Source: Gracilimonas sp. (lineage in GTDB: Bacteria > Bacteroidota > Rhodothermia > Balneolales > Balneolaceae). Taken from it: a stretch of DNA of 64,000 nucleotides. The notes below the pieces were generated by a model that was given only the letters and a program-made list of their open reading frames with translations, was not told the origin of the DNA and ran no database searches. Made by a program: the position numbers and the translations under genes. Location: contig NZ_JAEPPI010000001.1 in NCBI RefSeq assembly GCF_017641085.1, positions 310,001-374,000 on the forward strand, written 5' to 3'. Positions 14,376 through 60,900 of this stretch are shown one piece after another. Within the stretch, counting starts at the first letter, position 1, and the number at the start of each line of letters is the position of its first letter.

Positions 14376-14506
14376 AGCATTTTATTAGTAGTTAGAGAAG
14401 CTTTGGTACCCCTTTTTCTATAAACCCAAAAGCCCCATAGGATTGGGACTAATTTGCATAAAAAAAGGGTGATTTTCTACTATGGGTAAAAGTGTGGATA
14501 AAAGCC

Positions 14507-53171: not shown

Positions 53172-55994
53172 ATGGCTCAAAAGTTACTATCCGGTAAACA
53201 TTTAAAAGCACTACATATCGCCCTCTTCTTGCTGGTTGCCGCCTTGGGTTTCAAGGCAACAGCCCAGTCTGTATTGCTTCCGGGCGATGTAGTTATTGTA
53301 TCTGCAAATGCGGATACTCATTCCATCGATTTTATACCGCTTATCGATATTGAGGAAGGTACGGTGCTGTATTTCTCAAATGGGAAGTGGGATAAGGAAG
53401 CTCAAACTTTATCCGGGAATGAGCTTAAGGTAACATTCAAGAGCCCGATTCAGGCCGGCACAAATATTCACCTAAATGACTTTAATGATGACCGGCTGGA
53501 TATTGAAGGTGAGATGAGTTTTGAAGGCGGAACGTACCGTCTTTTTGCCTATCAGAGAGAAGAAGTATATCGGTTTATTTTTGCTATAGGCTGGGGGAAA
53601 GGGGGTGTATGGAATACCTTAGAGAAAGAAACACTGGGGTCAGACATCCCGGAAAGTTTGCAAGAAAGCGATCACACCTACCTGACACTGGGTGATGCCT
53701 CGAACTATCAGTATTACATCAGAAACGGAGCCAGCGGAACCCGGAATTTGTTGCTCCAGTATGTGGGAAATGAAAGCCATTGGCGTGGAAGTGAAAGCAA
53801 GCCTTTCCCAATTTTTGGAACCTCTTTTAATTTACTCGCCCCGCCGGTCGTTCTTTTTGATCAAAGTGTTTCTACTGTTCAGGAATCAGATTCGGTAGCT
53901 ATTTTGAATGTCGCTATTTATGAACATGATGGCTCCAGGCTTTCCGTTGATGTTAAGTTTGACACCCTTCGAAGTATCACATCTCCTGATGATTACACCG
54001 ACTTTGAAACCACAACCCTCAATTTTACCGGATTGATTGGGGATGGTGTATATGAAGTAAGGGTTCCGATTACAGATGACAGTGACTATGAAGGAAGAGA
54101 AACCGGTATTTTTACCCTGCAGAATTTAACAAAAGGAAATTACGGAGACTTCCTCACGCACAGCAAAATCATTCTGGACAATGAAAAGCCGGAGGTGTTA
54201 ATATCTCAGGTTGCAAATACCCCTGAAGGAGCTGATTTTGTGGAACTCCAGAACATGGAAGATGGCGTTGTCTCATTAAATGGCTGGAGCCTTTCCTCTA
54301 AAGACCAAAAATATACATTTGCTGAAGATGCTGTTTTATTTCCTCAGCAAACCATTCGTATTAAGCATAAAGCTTCAGCGGCTGAAGTAGATTCATTAGA
54401 GACTACTATTTACACAAATCTTGATAGGCCTTTGCTCAATAGAAGAGGCGGACAATTGGTGTTGAAAGATTTCAGCGGAGAGAAAATTCATGAGTTCAAG
54501 TACTCAGAACTGAAAAGGCAAAGTGAAAGCAATTCAGGGAGGGATGACTTGGTTTCAGGTAATGTTATAAATAATAGCAATCCACAAGTTAATGATGGTA
54601 ATCTGCTTGGGCTGAAGGCTTCTGTACAGCAAATGGCACAACCGGGGTTGAAAGTAATCACCCAGACTGATGGAATTAGAGATGTATTCCCGGAAGCACG
54701 ATTAAAAGGCTGGAATGAGAGCGAACAACAATTTGTGGAAGTAGCTTCAGAGTCGGCTTCGATGTCTGATTTTGGAATTCTGATTGGGCACTTCGAGGGA
54801 GAAGAAGCACAGAAATTAGCCGAGTGGAAAAAGAAAACTTCACAAAAAAAGCAGAATAGAAGCACACTCTCATTTAGTGTTTCAGCTACTGATCATGACC
54901 AAAATGAAGCCTTAAACGGAACGGAAGGTTTGAATCTGGTTTACAATAATTTGGACAGTCCCGTCAGCGTACAACGAATTCTTGAGCTGGCTGAAGAGAA
55001 ATATCCCGAAATTGCCATAAAACAACTTATCTACGGAGTGAAGCAAAATGCTACGGGAGACTTGGACTTTGTACCACTGCAAGATGAAGATCAAATTCCG
55101 GCTCAGGCTCCCTTTTGGATCATACTGGAAAATATCCAACCTGAAATAGAAATAAATTTCGATCTGCAGGAAATCAGCCAGCCGGCAGCTGCTGCAGATA
55201 CAGAGGAACTGACGGATGGAGAAATAACGACGATATCCCTTAAGCTTAATTCACAGGCTCAGAGCGAAAAGGTGACCGTTCACTTTGCAGATAACGGCAC
55301 AACGGAAAGCGTAAAAGACCTTAATTCGTACCCGGAGTTGTTCCTTGGCAACCACACTTTTCTGGATATGGCATTTTCCGGCGGGGAGGAATATTTCAGT
55401 GAGATTATACTATCCTCGAAAATAGAACAGGCGCTCTCATTGCCGTTGCAATTCAGTACTTCCGGTTCCGGTAAGTTGACTCTTTCTATAAGTGAGTGGG
55501 AGGCTATTCCTGCTGATTGGGAAATTAAGCTGGAAGATAAAGCAGCACAGAAAGAGTATGTTCTGAGAGAAGATTTCAGCATGACTTTCGACCACTCGGT
55601 GTTAGCTGAGGAAGCCAATCGGAACCGGGAAGCTTCGTTATCAGATTATGCGAAAAAAGACCGCTTTGTGATTCACATACAACCTCCCGGGCAAATTGCA
55701 GAAGGTGATGAGGAAGACGATACTTTGCCGCGGGAAGTAGAGCTTCACCAAAATTTCCCCAACCCATTTAACCCGGCCACTATTATTTCATTTTATCTGC
55801 CGGAATCAGAAGAAGTTCGTCTCTCTATTTTTAATATTGTAGGCCAGCCGGTTGCGGTGATTGCAGAAGGAACCATGTCGGCCGGAGAGCATCAGTTTGA
55901 ATGGGATGCCACAGACAAACCCAGCGGGATGTACATCTATCAGCTGGAAGTTGGAAAGAGTGTTATGACCCGAAAAATGACATTAGTAAAATAG
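53172..55994 (+). CDS. Large T9SS-exported protein with Calx-beta and lamin-tail-like domains
   Basis: A 940-residue secreted protein. The signal peptide ends in FKATAQ; the ATG at 53172 is preferred to the GTG two codons upstream. A beta domain (residues 35-220) is followed by a Calx-beta-like segment (VPITDDSDYEGRETGIF near 300), a lamin-tail-like domain (ADFVELQNMEDGVVSLNGWS near 350) and a long low-complexity middle. It ends in a type A sorting domain starting LHQNFPNPFNPATI and ending in RKMTLVK. No catalytic motif. Probably an adhesin or surface-layer component. Confidence 0.78.
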   Translation: MAQKLLSGKHLKALHIALFLLVAALGFKATAQSVLLPGDVVIVSANADTHSIDFIPLIDIEEGTVLYFSNGKWDKEAQTLSGNELKVTFKSPIQAGTNIHLNDFNDDRLDIEGEMSFEGGTYRLFAYQREEVYRFIFAIGWGKGGVWNTLEKETLGSDIPESLQESDHTYLTLGDASNYQYYIRNGASGTRNLLLQYVGNESHWRGSESKPFPIFGTSFNLLAPPVVLFDQSVSTVQESDSVAILNVAIYEHDGSRLSVDVKFDTLRSITSPDDYTDFETTTLNFTGLIGDGVYEVRVPITDDSDYEGRETGIFTLQNLTKGNYGDFLTHSKIILDNEKPEVLISQVANTPEGADFVELQNMEDGVVSLNGWSLSSKDQKYTFAEDAVLFPQQTIRIKHKASAAEVDSLETTIYTNLDRPLLNRRGGQLVLKDFSGEKIHEFKYSELKRQSESNSGRDDLVSGNVINNSNPQVNDGNLLGLKASVQQMAQPGLKVITQTDGIRDVFPEARLKGWNESEQQFVEVASESASMSDFGILIGHFEGEEAQKLAEWKKKTSQKKQNRSTLSFSVSATDHDQNEALNGTEGLNLVYNNLDSPVSVQRILELAEEKYPEIAIKQLIYGVKQNATGDLDFVPLQDEDQIPAQAPFWIILENIQPEIEINFDLQEISQPAAAADTEELTDGEITTISLKLNSQAQSEKVTVHFADNGTTESVKDLNSYPELFLGNHTFLDMAFSGGEEYFSEIILSSKIEQALSLPLQFSTSGSGKLTLSISEWEAIPADWEIKLEDKAAQKEYVLREDFSMTFDHSVLAEEANRNREASLSDYAKKDRFVIHIQPPGQIAEGDEEDDTLPREVELHQNFPNPFNPATIISFYLPESEEVRLSIFNIVGQPVAVIAEGTMSAGEHQFEWDATDKPSGMYIYQLEVGKSVMTRKMTLVK

Positions 55995-56072
55995 TGAACA
56001 GATTTCGTGTGATAACAGTTATTCCAAATAAGTAACCATAAATCAAAAAAGGACAAGTACTCTTTACCTATC

Positions 56073-56894
56073 ATGCAGTTTAAAACAATTCAAGGGGTGG
56101 AAGTGCCCGAAGTAGGGTTAGGAACACACCGATTAATTGGCAGAGAAGGCGAAAACACAATAAAGCTGGCACTGAATCTTGGCTATCGCCACATCGACAC
56201 TGCCCAAAGCTATAAAAACGAAAGAGAAGTCGGGGAGGCCATCAAGAGATCACATGTTGATCGGGAAGAGATATTTCTTACCACCAAAGTTTGGCATACC
56301 CATCTTGAGAAAGACGACGTTTTAAAGATTGCAGAAAACTCACTTCGGGAATTGGACACTCCTTATGTGGATTTGTTGCTGGTGCACTGGCCCAACCCGG
56401 AAGTAAACATCGAAAAAACGATGGAGGCTTTTCTGTCACTGCGCGACCAGGGTAAAGCGCTGAACATTGGCGTTGCCAACTTTCCGCTGAAGTTATTGAA
56501 GGAAGTGAATGAAGAGCTTGGTGCCCCCATCTTTTGCAATCAGGTTGAATACCATCCCTTCCTGAGCCAGTTTGATTTACTGGACTATACCGCCGAGCAG
56601 GATATCCTTTTTACCGCATATTCCCCGCTTGCACAGGCAAAAGTGATGGAGAATCCATTGCTTCAAAAGCTTGGTGAAAAATACGGAAAATCACCGGCAC
56701 AAATTGCCCTGCGCTGGTTGATAGAACAAGAGCAGGTGGTTGCAATCCCGAAGGCTTCATCGGAAGAACACCTGAAAGAGAACATCGATGTGTTTGATTT
56801 TGTGCTGGAAGACGACGACTTCTATGCCATCGATGATATCCAGAAAGATACCCGGTTAATCGATCCCGACTTTGCCCCTGAATGGGATAAATAG
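56073..56894 (+). CDS. Aldo/keto reductase
   Basis: A 273-residue NADPH-dependent reductase of the AKR superfamily. The catalytic tetrad is visible: Asp and Tyr in HIDTAQSYKNE, Lys in LTTKVWHTH and His in LLLVHWPNP. The cofactor region IPKASSEEHLKENI is also present. The size and motifs fit the AKR5-like group that reduces 2,5-diketo-D-gluconate or methylglyoxal; the physiological substrate is not evident. It ends shortly before a pair of palindromic repeats. Confidence 0.93.
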   Translation: MQFKTIQGVEVPEVGLGTHRLIGREGENTIKLALNLGYRHIDTAQSYKNEREVGEAIKRSHVDREEIFLTTKVWHTHLEKDDVLKIAENSLRELDTPYVDLLLVHWPNPEVNIEKTMEAFLSLRDQGKALNIGVANFPLKLLKEVNEELGAPIFCNQVEYHPFLSQFDLLDYTAEQDILFTAYSPLAQAKVMENPLLQKLGEKYGKSPAQIALRWLIEQEQVVAIPKASSEEHLKENIDVFDFVLEDDDFYAIDDIQKDTRLIDPDFAPEWDK

Positions 56895-56914
56895 TAGCTG
56901 ATAAGCAACTATTC

Positions 56915-56978
56915 AACCCTTCCAGGGTTAAGCCAAATTTGTTTGAGTCAGACCGATTGCCAAAACCCTGGAAGGGTT
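56915..56978. repeat. Palindromic element, copy 1
   Basis: Perfect 15-bp inverted repeats AACCCTTCCAGGGTT (56915-56929) and AACCCTGGAAGGGTT (56964-56978) enclose 34 bases. Copy 2, 63 bases downstream, has the same layout and the shared ATTGCCA next to the right arm. Confidence 0.8.
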
Positions 56979-57041
56979 AGTTCAGGCATCGAAAGGTAGA
57001 TTCGGGCAAGAAAAAAAGCTTTTACTACCCATATATATTTC

Positions 57042-57108
57042 ATAACCCTTCCAGAGTTAAACCCTCGTGCTTTTGTTAGGCTTATTGCCATAACTCTGGA
57101 AGGGTTAT
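57042..57108. repeat. Palindromic element, copy 2
   Basis: Perfect 18-bp inverted repeats (57042-57059 and 57091-57108), core AACCCTTCCAGAGTT and AACTCTGGAAGGGTT, enclose 31 bases. Compared with copy 1 one position differs in both arms in a way that keeps the pairing. Confidence 0.8.
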
Positions 57109-57132
57109 TGGTAGTATAGGTAAGGAGTTTAA

Positions 57133-57861
57133 TCAGCTGCAGGCAGCTAAGGCCAGTACATCCCCATCCTGGTTTGTAAGCTGATGGCGGTAGTTTTGAT
57201 GCTCTTCGTTTTTTCGTTCGGAAGTGATCATATCACCAGAGCGGCTTTCCCGCATGAACATGATATCCATGTTTTTGATCAGGTAGGCTTTGTCATCATC
57301 GTAAGTCTCCATCAGCCACTCCACAAAGCGGGCATTGTTTACGTGCTCGTTCATATCCAGGTCTGAATTTCGGACTACAAACTTTTTAGTTACATCCGCA
57401 TCCTCAAAGGAATTCAAGCGATCGGATTTTACCGGCATCACATGTTCCAATTCTGATAACCGAAGGTCCAGAACGTCTTGCGGCATGCGGGTAGGCTTAC
57501 GGGTCTTTAAATTGATCATCATCCAATAGCTGAGGCAAGCCCCGATTTGGGTGCCTTCTTCATCCAAAATGCGGTAATCCCGATAGGCTCGTAAAGCATC
57601 GCCGGCGGCCGGCCAGGTTTCGATAGTGATTTTTTCCCTCCAGTTTGGATAACGCTCAATCTTGATGTCCATACGATGAAGCACCCAGGTGAGGTCTTTC
57701 TCCTGAAGCTGAGTGATATCAAAATTGAGTTTGTGGGCGTGATTCCCGGCTACTTCCTGAAAGAGAGAGCAAAGGGCCGGAAGGGTAATTTGCCCCCCGG
57801 AGCCAACTTCACTGGCCCGGATGGTAAAGGTTTCGCTATGCTTGGTGATGTTATCAGTCAT
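57133..57861 (-). CDS. Acyl-ACP thioesterase
   Basis: A 242-residue double hot-dog thioesterase of the FatA/FatB type that releases free fatty acids from acyl carrier protein. The N-terminal half shows TLPALCSLFQEVAGNHAHKL and TWVLHRMDIKIERYPNW. The active-site NxH motif lies in the second hot-dog domain as VRNSDLDMNEHVNNARFVEW. The likely role is tailoring fatty acid supply for lipids. It is followed on the right by a minus-strand RND gene. Chain-length specificity cannot be read from the sequence. Confidence 0.9.
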   Translation of the reverse strand: MTDNITKHSETFTIRASEVGSGGQITLPALCSLFQEVAGNHAHKLNFDITQLQEKDLTWVLHRMDIKIERYPNWREKITIETWPAAGDALRAYRDYRILDEEGTQIGACLSYWMMINLKTRKPTRMPQDVLDLRLSELEHVMPVKSDRLNSFEDADVTKKFVVRNSDLDMNEHVNNARFVEWLMETYDDDKAYLIKNMDIMFMRESRSGDMITSERKNEEHQNYRHQLTNQDGDVLALAACS

Positions 57862-57925
57862 GGATGAAGGTGAAGTTCCGAATCACCCCAAACATAAATG
57901 AAAAAAAGGATTTATGTGTCGATGA

Positions 57926-60900
57926 TTACTTAGCCGCATGCAATATTCGGTTGCTCCAGATCTTGATGTCATCCAGGATCACATAAATGGAGGGCAGTAC
58001 CAAGAGGGTTACTACTGTAGAAAAGGTAAGTCCGCCTACAATGGCACGTGCCATCGGGAAGTAGGGAGGGCCGTCGCCGCCAATCTGTGTGGTTCCGAAA
58101 CAAAGGGGAACCAAACCAAGCACAGTGGTAGCTGCCGTCATCAGGATAGGGCGCATGCGGTCTCGTCCGCCTTGTATAACGGCTTCCCTTCGCGATAAAC
58201 CCTCACTGCGCAGATGGTTAATATGATCAATCAGCACGATCCCGTTATTCACTACAATTCCCATCAGGATAAGAATTCCGATGAAGGCCATCAGGTCAAA
58301 AGTGGTTCCTGTGATAAAGAAGAACCAAAAGATTCCGATCATACCGTAAAAAATGCAGGAGAGCACGCTGGTGGGATAAATAAGCGATTCAAACAGGGAG
58401 GCCATGATCAGATAAATCAGGAAAAAAGCTATGGAGATATTAAAAAGCATGGTGTTCATCGCATCCATATCATTTCCAAAGCTTCGTCCGTAGCTCCATC
58501 CGTAGCCGGCGGGATATATAATTTGATCCATCACCTGCGATATTTTTCCGCGCGCTTCATCCGATGTAATATCATCGAGGTTGATGGAAATCCCCAGGGA
58601 AGTGCGGCGGTTTTCACGGAAAATGCGTCCGGCGCCGGGTCGCTCTTCAAAGTCGGCAAGGGTGGCAAGCTTCACTGATTGATCGTCATTAATAGAAATC
58701 GGCAGGTTTTTAAGATCATCGATGGTTTGCCGGTTTACATCCTGAAAGGCAAGGACCACATCGATTTCACTGTCTTCACCGCGAATACGCTGTATGGTTT
58801 GTCCGCGCATAGCTCCGGATACCATGCTGGCAACCGCCGATGAGGTAAGCCCGAAATTACGGGCGCGGTCATGATTTACGGTGAGGCGGATTTCATCACT
58901 TCCGGTCTCCGCTTCAGAACGAACATCGGCAAAGCCTTCAATTTGACCAAGTCGCCATTCCACCTGTTCGGCCAACTCTTCAAGTACGTCCATCGATTCG
59001 CCCTGTACAAAAACCCGAACCTGTTCGGCACTGTTACGGCTGATAAACTCAAAAGCCGGCTGACCGAGTGCAATTTTGGGCAGGTCTTTTTGGATTTCTT
59101 CCTTAATCTGCGTCACCGCCTTTTTGGCATCGTCCTCGTCAATAAGGTTGATTGTAGATTGGGCGTATTCGGGCTGGTAGTAGGTGTAAACAGACTCTAT
59201 TTCGAATTTATCCTGGTTTTCGTAAAGGTATTCTTCAATCCGATCTACCGATTCTTTTACTCGATCCAGGGTATAACTGGCATTCAGATTATATTGAAGG
59301 CGTAGCTGCCGTTCTTCAATCCTTGGAAACATATCCACGTTCATAAATGCAATAGGGACGCCGCCACTCAAAAACAGCAAAACAATAAAAAGCACTGAGA
59401 TTTTACGACGTTCCAATAACCATCCAAGCAAGGCGGAGTATTTTATGGAAAGTTTATCAATAACTGTTTTTTTCTTTGATTTTTCAGGCGGATGAATCTT
59501 GGAGGCGAGCAGGGGTATCACTGTAAGCGAAATAACCAGCGAAGCCAGCAGAGCAATGATAATCGCCATACCTATGTAATACATATGCTGTGAGATAAAG
59601 CTCTCATTCACTACGTTTGGCAGGAAAACGATGATGGAGGTCAGCGTACCAGCCGTAACGGCTATGGAAACTTCTTTGGCTCCTAGAATAGCTGATTTAC
59701 GAGCGTCATTTCCTTTGCGTTGATACCGGTGTATGTTCTCGGTTACTACTACGGCGTTGTCCACAAGCATACCAATAGCGAGCATCAGTCCCATCATGGA
59801 AAGGATATTCAGCGAAATGTCGAGGAAGTAGAAAAAGCCAAGCGTTACAATGAGTGAAAAGGGGACGGCTGTGGCAACGATGAGGGTGGTGCTCATTTGT
59901 CGAAGGAAAATATACAGTACAATTACCGAGAGCAGTGCACCGATCATTCCGGAATTAAAAAGCTCCCGAAGCGAACTCAGGATTCCGTCGGCCTGGTTAA
60001 ACATCTCATAAATCTCTATGCCCTGCATTTCAGGAAGCTCATTTACCTTGTCAATTTCGGCTAAAACTTCATCAACTACCTGAACGGTATTGGCGGTAGA
60101 TTCCTTGGTGATATCCAACCCGATTGCGTATTTGCGATCGAGGTGACGGGCATAATTTCGTTCGGGGGAAGTATATTTAACGGTGGCAATATCCTTTACG
60201 CGGATGTTATTATCGGCCACAATGAGATTTTCGATATCCTCAACGCCATTCAGGTTGCCAACCGGACGAACCATGTATCGCAGACCGGAATCAGTAATTT
60301 TACCTGCTGAAATTGAAAAATTCGCTTGTCTTAGGGTACTGCTCAGCCTGTTCAAGTTAATATTGTACTGGGTGAGCCGGTCCGGGTCAAGTTCAATACG
60401 TATTTCCTTTTTCTCTACGCCATACAGGGTAACCTGTCCAACTCCGGGAATGCGTTCGATGCGCTGCTTCAGGTTGCGGTTCAACAACTCATAAGCATCT
60501 GACAGATCCCGGTTACTGGAAATACGCAGCTGAAGGGTAGGGGCATCTCCATCCTGGAATTTATTGATGGTATAGTATTCAAAATCATCAGGTAGCTGAT
60601 TTCGGATGCTTTCGATCTTTTCCTTAATCTCGATGGCTTTGAGATCAATTTCATTTCCCTGCTTAAAAATGACGATTACCCCGGCATTATCCTCTCCCGA
60701 ATTGGAGTTAATACGTTCTACCCCGCTGATGGTAGCCAGCACTTCTTCAATAGGCCGGGCTATATTTTCATTTACCTCGGTAGGTGTAGAATTGGGGTAT
60801 GGAAGCTGCACAAAAGCCCCGGGAAAAGTGATGTTCGGCATAAACTCGAGCGGTACCAGCCGAGTGGCAATTAACCCTACAACCAACAGGCTGACAAAAA

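Follow-up and report, generated by a model that had tools for sequence, protein, structure and literature searches.

The window, a stretch of 64,000 nucleotides of the Gracilimonas sp. host genome, carries two neighbouring palindromes which we consider likely to be copies of a non-autonomous REPIN-type repeat, probably spread by a REP-associated tyrosine transposase and then locally multiplied. Each palindrome is a doublet made of inverted 15-17-nt near-palindromes on either side of a 31-34-nt spacer. The two near-palindromes could each fold alone or pair with each other into a stem of 15-17 bp. The copies would most likely have spread as single-stranded hairpins by the action of a tyrosine (HUH) enzyme, presumably of the kind that remains between element copies in the closest congener (G001), and may later have multiplied locally as clusters together with their flanks. 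The host copies are probably immobile today, because no intact cognate transposase was found in the host.

Element copy 1 lies at 56914..56979 (covariance model R1, 76.7 bits, E 2.9e-17) and copy 2 at 57043..57107 (79.8 bits, E 4.8e-18), both with the minus strand as the better-scoring orientation and both among the training sequences of R1. The perfect arms described in the sequence-only reading were confirmed. In copy 1, the left arm AACCCTTCCAGGGTT (56915..56929, plus strand) and the right arm, which is its reverse complement (56964..56978, minus strand), are 15 bp long and enclose a 34-nt spacer with a weak central hairpin (56930..56963, strand not assigned). In copy 2, a left arm of 18 bp with the core AACCCTTCCAGAGTT (57042..57059, plus strand) and a perfectly complementary right arm (57091..57108, minus strand) enclose a spacer of 31 nt (57060..57090, strand not assigned). 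ATTGCCA adjoins the right arm in both copies, as had been noticed, and the single arm difference is indeed compensated, with a G-C pair in copy 1 and an A-T pair in copy 2, both arms being altered. The proposed likeness to a REP doublet holds for the build, which is REPIN-type, but not for the pair as a unit, since each palindrome alone is a doublet and the window has two. The copies sit between convergent genes. An aldo/keto reductase gene (56073..56894, plus strand; PF00248, E 8.8e-62) ends 19 bases before copy 1, and an acyl-ACP thioesterase gene (57133..57861, minus strand; PF01643, E 1.2e-34, and PF20791) ends 25 bases beyond copy 2. The closest named relative identified through a flanking protein is a Balneola MAG, at 81% identity.

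The whole-genome arm search that the earlier reading called for revealed a dispersed family. When up to one mismatch is allowed, the arm AACCCTTCCAGRGTT is found 26 times in the 3.49 Mb of the host genome (7 contigs), against 0 matches of the reversed sequence used as a control. The covariance model, trained on 15 copies, found 21 places in the host and at least 63 in seven of the ten genomes of the genus, host included, distinct places being counted with both strands merged. The counts per genome (host 21, G001 24, G007 8, G003 5, G006 3, G005 1, G008 1) are lower bounds, as 150 of 1218-2108 candidates were scored per genome. With the same 150 candidates scored, the model found no element in the congeners G002, G004, and G009; G004 nevertheless has one exact match to the degenerate arm AACYYTTCCARRGTT. 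This degenerate arm matches exactly 38 times in the host and the control 0 times, the control having one match each in G006 and G007. Thirty-two of the 38 host arms make up 16 doublets, plus then minus, whose starts are separated by 48-51 bp (0 in the control); five of the remaining six lie in model places with a drifted second arm, and one is single. The strict doublet occurs in 8 of 394 sampled genomes of the phylum, a sample that did not include G001, and all eight belong to two genera within the host's family. The arm of the second genus is mostly AACTCTTCCAGAGTT. The exact doublet pattern gave 0 matches to the GTDB-220 contigs, a set that may lack the host and its near relatives. The element is neither unique in the genome nor absent from relatives, and its stem is conserved.

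All 60 places examined are intergenic, with none overlapping a frame of at least 90 aa by more than 12 nt (our own frame caller). These are 60 of the 63 places, two G003 places and the single G008 place being left out of the gene-context list, and the 57-copy comparisons below are likewise without G003 or G008 copies. Clusters of two elements occur at several sites. We sought a longer repeat unit with one element and its flanks; most of the 21 matches stop within about 2 nt of the core. The exceptions, in the host (G000), are G000:C1:1060985, C2:71357, and C3:332271, the last with one arm. At L184/L189 (G000:C2:858742 and G000:C3:332271), the longer shared flank of one element recurs with a single arm left, perhaps by arm-to-arm deletion. 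Elsewhere in the window, a weak model match at 14407-14471 on the minus strand (15.8 bits, E 0.13) is probably due to chance.

The arm-to-arm covariation that the sequence-only reading proposed to look for is present. In a set of 15 copies, double changes are seen at three inner long-stem pairs; the arm-only fold is broken at one pair in 6 of the 15, without any double change. We then compared 48 copies of both genera (alignment A3, drawn from 54 sequences with G001:C3:423016 and five similar other-genus copies left out). In the long stem, 94.5% of 816 cells are paired, 78 cells are changed on both sides, and the covariation score is 0.259. In the arm hairpins, 92.9% of 672 cells are paired with 71 double changes; one of the pairs does not form in 14 copies out of the 48. 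For either structure, none of 500 shuffles equals the paired percentage, the number of double-change cells, or the covariation score, values which are favoured both by relatedness and by collecting copies with a model or pattern that looks for both arms. Neither the count of doubly changed pairs (reached by 46 of 500 shuffles for the long stem and 119 of 500 for the arm hairpins) nor that of pair types (500 of 500 and 317 of 500) is exceptional. The wider alignment thus supports both folds, with stricter support for the long one. The two arms of a doublet share one four-position subtype in 49 of 57 cases, and the subfamilies of relatives differ at a few arm positions, mostly in both arms together.

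In a permutation analysis of foot pairing (12 combinations), local pairing at the foot of the left arm exceeds chance, with fractions of 5000 permutations of 0.0002 for all 39 copies, 0.0016 for T-arm copies, and 0.10 for CC-arm copies. The right arm, the outer flanks, and the inner spacer ends gave no clear signal (0.08-0.74). The foot-pairing set, like the list of 54 sequences, omits 18 G001 copies considered to be orthologues of copies in the host. A GTAG tag on either strand within 8 nt of the arm edge was found in 1 of 39 copies at each of the four edges (background 96/4680), and GT[AG]G in 4, 1, 2, and 2 of 39 (background 224/4680). A motif chosen post hoc, TA[AC]GG or TTAGG within 9 nt past the right arm, is present in 10 of 22 T-arm and 0 of 16 CC-arm copies (background 25/2340).

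The site in the window differs between relatives. It has two elements in the host and G001 and one in G006, where the TTCCA/TGGAA core is now TTCAA/TTGAA in its two arms. The two genes stand side by side without the element in G004, G007, and G008 (BLAST) and in G002 (by eye), and they are non-adjacent in G003 and G005, with G009 outside this comparison. At 17 sites common to the host and G001, differences were counted at 11 of 509 arm-core positions (2.2%), 48 of 539 spacer positions (8.9%), and 176 of 1305 positions in the adjacent 40-nt flanks (13.5%), the flank value of the pair 67602 / 1931952 being inflated by the comparison of a transposase end with a gene flank. The arms change about four times less than the spacers (bootstrap 95% interval of the ratio 0.09-0.53), which overstates arm conservation to some degree because the sites were located via their arms. 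Left out of the 17 were the pair G000:C3:693014 / G001:C2:395853 (4/30 arm-core changes, unrelated spacers), the 129089 pair, and the second host copy at 788433. A reading of G000:C3:129089 and G001:C1:2091439 as a spacer replacement was rejected, as their alignment is that of a second element beside the decayed orthologue. Six sites common with more distant congeners keep 28-33 of 34 arm positions, with a spacer identity of 0.42-0.58 versus 0.42-0.46 when shuffled.

The spacer is inverted between the arms, with flank order kept, at three shared sites: G000:C1:553749 / G001:C2:178255, G000:C2:73641 / G001:C1:1924973, and G001:C3:423016 / G006:C8:200545. The third case is weaker, one G001 arm being decayed and one outer flank different. 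Template switching at inverted repeats may be the cause. A literature search, judged by its listing, found no report of spacer inversion in REP or REPIN.

An enzyme that may have mobilised the element is found in the closest congener. In G001, the gene of a 187-aa REP_Tyr_transpos homologue (E 1.2e-18) lies between direct element copies, starting 44 bp after one copy and ending 12 bp before the next, and a third copy follows. The orthologous host site has by BLAST a single copy bearing the outer flanks of both G001 copies and no gene. Between the host site and the G001 locus, BLAST gives two segments which overlap in the one host copy and omit the gene and one copy. Such overlap implies either a gain of the gene and one copy in G001 or their loss from the host through direct-repeat recombination. 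In G007, the element is present at this site without the transposase gene.

At E 0.01, the G001 protein matches one PDB entry only, 4er8 of E. coli TnpArep (E 0.0035). Pfam Y1_Tnp falls just below the cut-off for this protein and has no match to the other two linked proteins. NCBIfam REP_Tyr_transpos is the only family matched by the three (67.4, 65.5, and 60.7 bits, E 1.4e-16 or better). They miss its curated cut-off of 80 bits, but that cut-off serves naming, and their homology is clear. In G003, a 210-aa RAYT-type homologue, 37% identical to that of G001, has a short same-arm doublet 28 bp upstream of its gene. A protein 62% identical to that of G001 occurs in G092 and G025 (second genus), and the G092 gene has only a mismatched arm-like sequence upstream. 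N-H-x-H and Y-I-H-x-N-P are invariant in six aligned proteins (L073 first), so that the HUH motif and the tyrosine, whose catalytic role is described in the accessible text of PMC3733652, are both present.

The distribution of these genes counts against the transposase link, as the presence of RAYT-type genes does not follow that of the elements from genome to genome. REP_Tyr_transpos has 16 matches in G002, 12 in G004, and 11 in G009, yet the model finds no element there. Only 3 of 28 RAYT-type frames have an arm-like sequence within 350 nt, the third with mismatches only, and 25 have none; the 28 are the frames passing a motif filter among the fetched loci, of which some are duplicated and one has a partly masked flank. 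The arm adjoining another G001 transposase (L123) was given no weight, being a single arm with none at the G006 counterpart locus.

RAYT mobilisation had been suggested along with a search of the genome for Y1 or RAYT genes. Such genes exist in the host, and RAYT-type genes adjoin copies in two congeners, but no host transposase locus examined carries an intact arm. An arm with at most one mismatch is absent from the host's five Y1 (PF01797) loci and from two further RAYT-type loci. The host's sole over-cut-off REP_Tyr_transpos gene, whose locus also lacks such an arm, carries an in-frame stop; this gene (L031/L269, G000:C1:948451) lies near a GTTCCCAACA-type hairpin. Four other host genes are intact IS200-like Y1 transposases, all above the NF033573 cut-off, and they could have moved the element as an IS200/IS605-type MITE. 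HUH/Y1 enzymes of the IS200/IS605 TnpA type act on hairpin ends, according to the available portions of the REPIN and REPtron papers. One such gene lies at L029 in an intergenic region that also contains a decayed element, and this locus has two 2-mismatch arm matches; the same gene pair carries an IS200-type transposase and the decayed element in both the host and G001 (L029, L124, and L125), the element being better kept in G001. However, the G006 counterpart has a full element without the transposase, which makes the element independent of this gene. The IS200-type genes are also flanked by hairpins that are shorter than and unlike the element (by eye), as is the case for each gene at L027, L028, and L030 with its own short hairpins. 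We regard an IS200/IS605 origin as improbable.

Conservation and pairing of the arms at individual sites may reflect a residual use of the hairpin, either at an RNA 3' end or as a DNA structure. A possible but doubtful reading goes further and takes the copies as host-selected RNA hairpins at gene 3' ends, which spread once and are now kept for transcript protection or termination. The slow change of arms relative to spacers and flanks, at the 17 host/G001 sites and the six distant ones, agrees with such a role, as does the orientation of the neighbouring genes at the 60 places (18 convergent, 37 co-directional, and 5 divergent). However, these sites were picked for a detectable element, which biases them toward conserved arms, and several congeners have the same gene pair without the element. 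The window copies also lack a terminator-like site: a scan of 56800-57250 for intrinsic terminators (G+C-rich stem, short loop, T run) found 0, the element loop being 31-34 nt, and an Rfam covariance-model scan of 55500-58500 gave 0 matches up to E 1. The spacer inversions could suggest an invertible hairpin, whose spacer flips in place and whose arms are held by selection locus by locus. Here, RAYT-derived repeats would have become host hairpins and inversion would be driven by strand-switching or by the transposase itself, which we consider unlikely.

Paired protein-binding sites, for example those of a dimeric regulator looping DNA, would account for near-palindromic arms at near-fixed spacing without any folded element. 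A symmetric dimer would not need the two arms to change subtype together, nor the single orientation of all 16 exact host doublets, and we find this explanation very improbable. The integron attC consensus was used to weigh an attC-like reading, which was dropped as the element sites are dispersed. Chance palindromes have a negligible probability, given the arm matches against none in the control and the RNA folding of both copies on both strands, which is stabler than that of 200 out of 200 dinucleotide shuffles (z -5.5 to -6.4).

The preferred reading, a REPIN-type repeat probably moved by a REP-associated tyrosine transposase, was compared with known systems. REPINs, which are REP doublets forming hairpins and are associated with RAYT transposases, were described by Bertels and Rainey (2011; PMC3116915). 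As in the accessible parts of that paper, the present element has conserved inverted short palindromes, a less conserved spacer, and compensatory changes, and is extragenic, found in tandem clusters with flanks, and accompanied by a RAYT gene beside copies. Two inverted short palindromes at near-constant spacing able to form a long hairpin, arms that are themselves palindromic as in a REP, and multiple extragenic copies are all found here, and a RAYT-type gene with the repeat in its flanks is found in G001 and G003 but not in the host. The alternative between long stem and arm hairpins is the same as that proposed in a figure legend of PMC3116915, where REPINs form either a long hairpin or a 'clover'. 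Unlike REPINs, the element has another arm sequence, lacks a GTAG-type tag, is low in copy number, has its RAYT link in congeners only, and shows spacer inversions in place. REPtrons are RAYT/tnpA_REP genes flanked by REPs (PMC3733652 and PMC6006769, as far as their accessible text goes), and the G001 transposase between direct copies resembles them. Unlike in REPtrons, the GTAG motif was not found, and the host has no intact REPtron of such type. PMC3733652 states in its accessible part that REPtrons may be absent through deletion, which would fit the host state. The cleavage by TnpA_REP is treated in PMC8266576.

TnpA_REP subclass 2.6, mostly of Bacteroidetes, is described in the available part of PMC6006769 as having 'atypical secondary structures' on its flanks, which lack GT[AG]G and have copies elsewhere. 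The element is similar in lacking GT[AG]G and in having hairpins with copies elsewhere, a comparison by that partial description alone, and it may equal a hairpin listed there. The motifs of L172 (G003; NHLH and YIHNNP) fit the subclass 2.6 signatures NH[LIV]H and YIH[QN]NP as given in that text, and YIHQNP of L286 fits the latter. In contrast, NHFH in L286, NHFH and YIHLNP in L073, and the lack of WQ in the aligned proteins differ from the signatures in the same text. Placement of these proteins in subclass 2.6 is not established. The G003 gene also contains, between its HUH and Tyr motifs, an in-frame AAACCTCCAAGGTTT-type hairpin (L172:1551-1583), which resembles what the accessible text of PMC6006769 describes for subclass 2.4; similar hairpins flank this gene.

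Our literature search on Balneola palindromic repeats and RAYT in Bacteroidetes, judged by title, found no description of this family, which is new as far as that search goes; its kind, REPIN, is already known. With this family, the Balneola group gains a REPIN-type repeat that lacks GTAG and has a likely transposase. A transposase gene that is there in one close relative and missing in another at a single site, the spacer inversions, and the slowly changing arms offer natural test cases for the movement of REPINs and their putative use by hosts. In the second genus, four doublets lie within 15 kb amid ordinary-looking genes at L244 (G201:C17:381652-396648).
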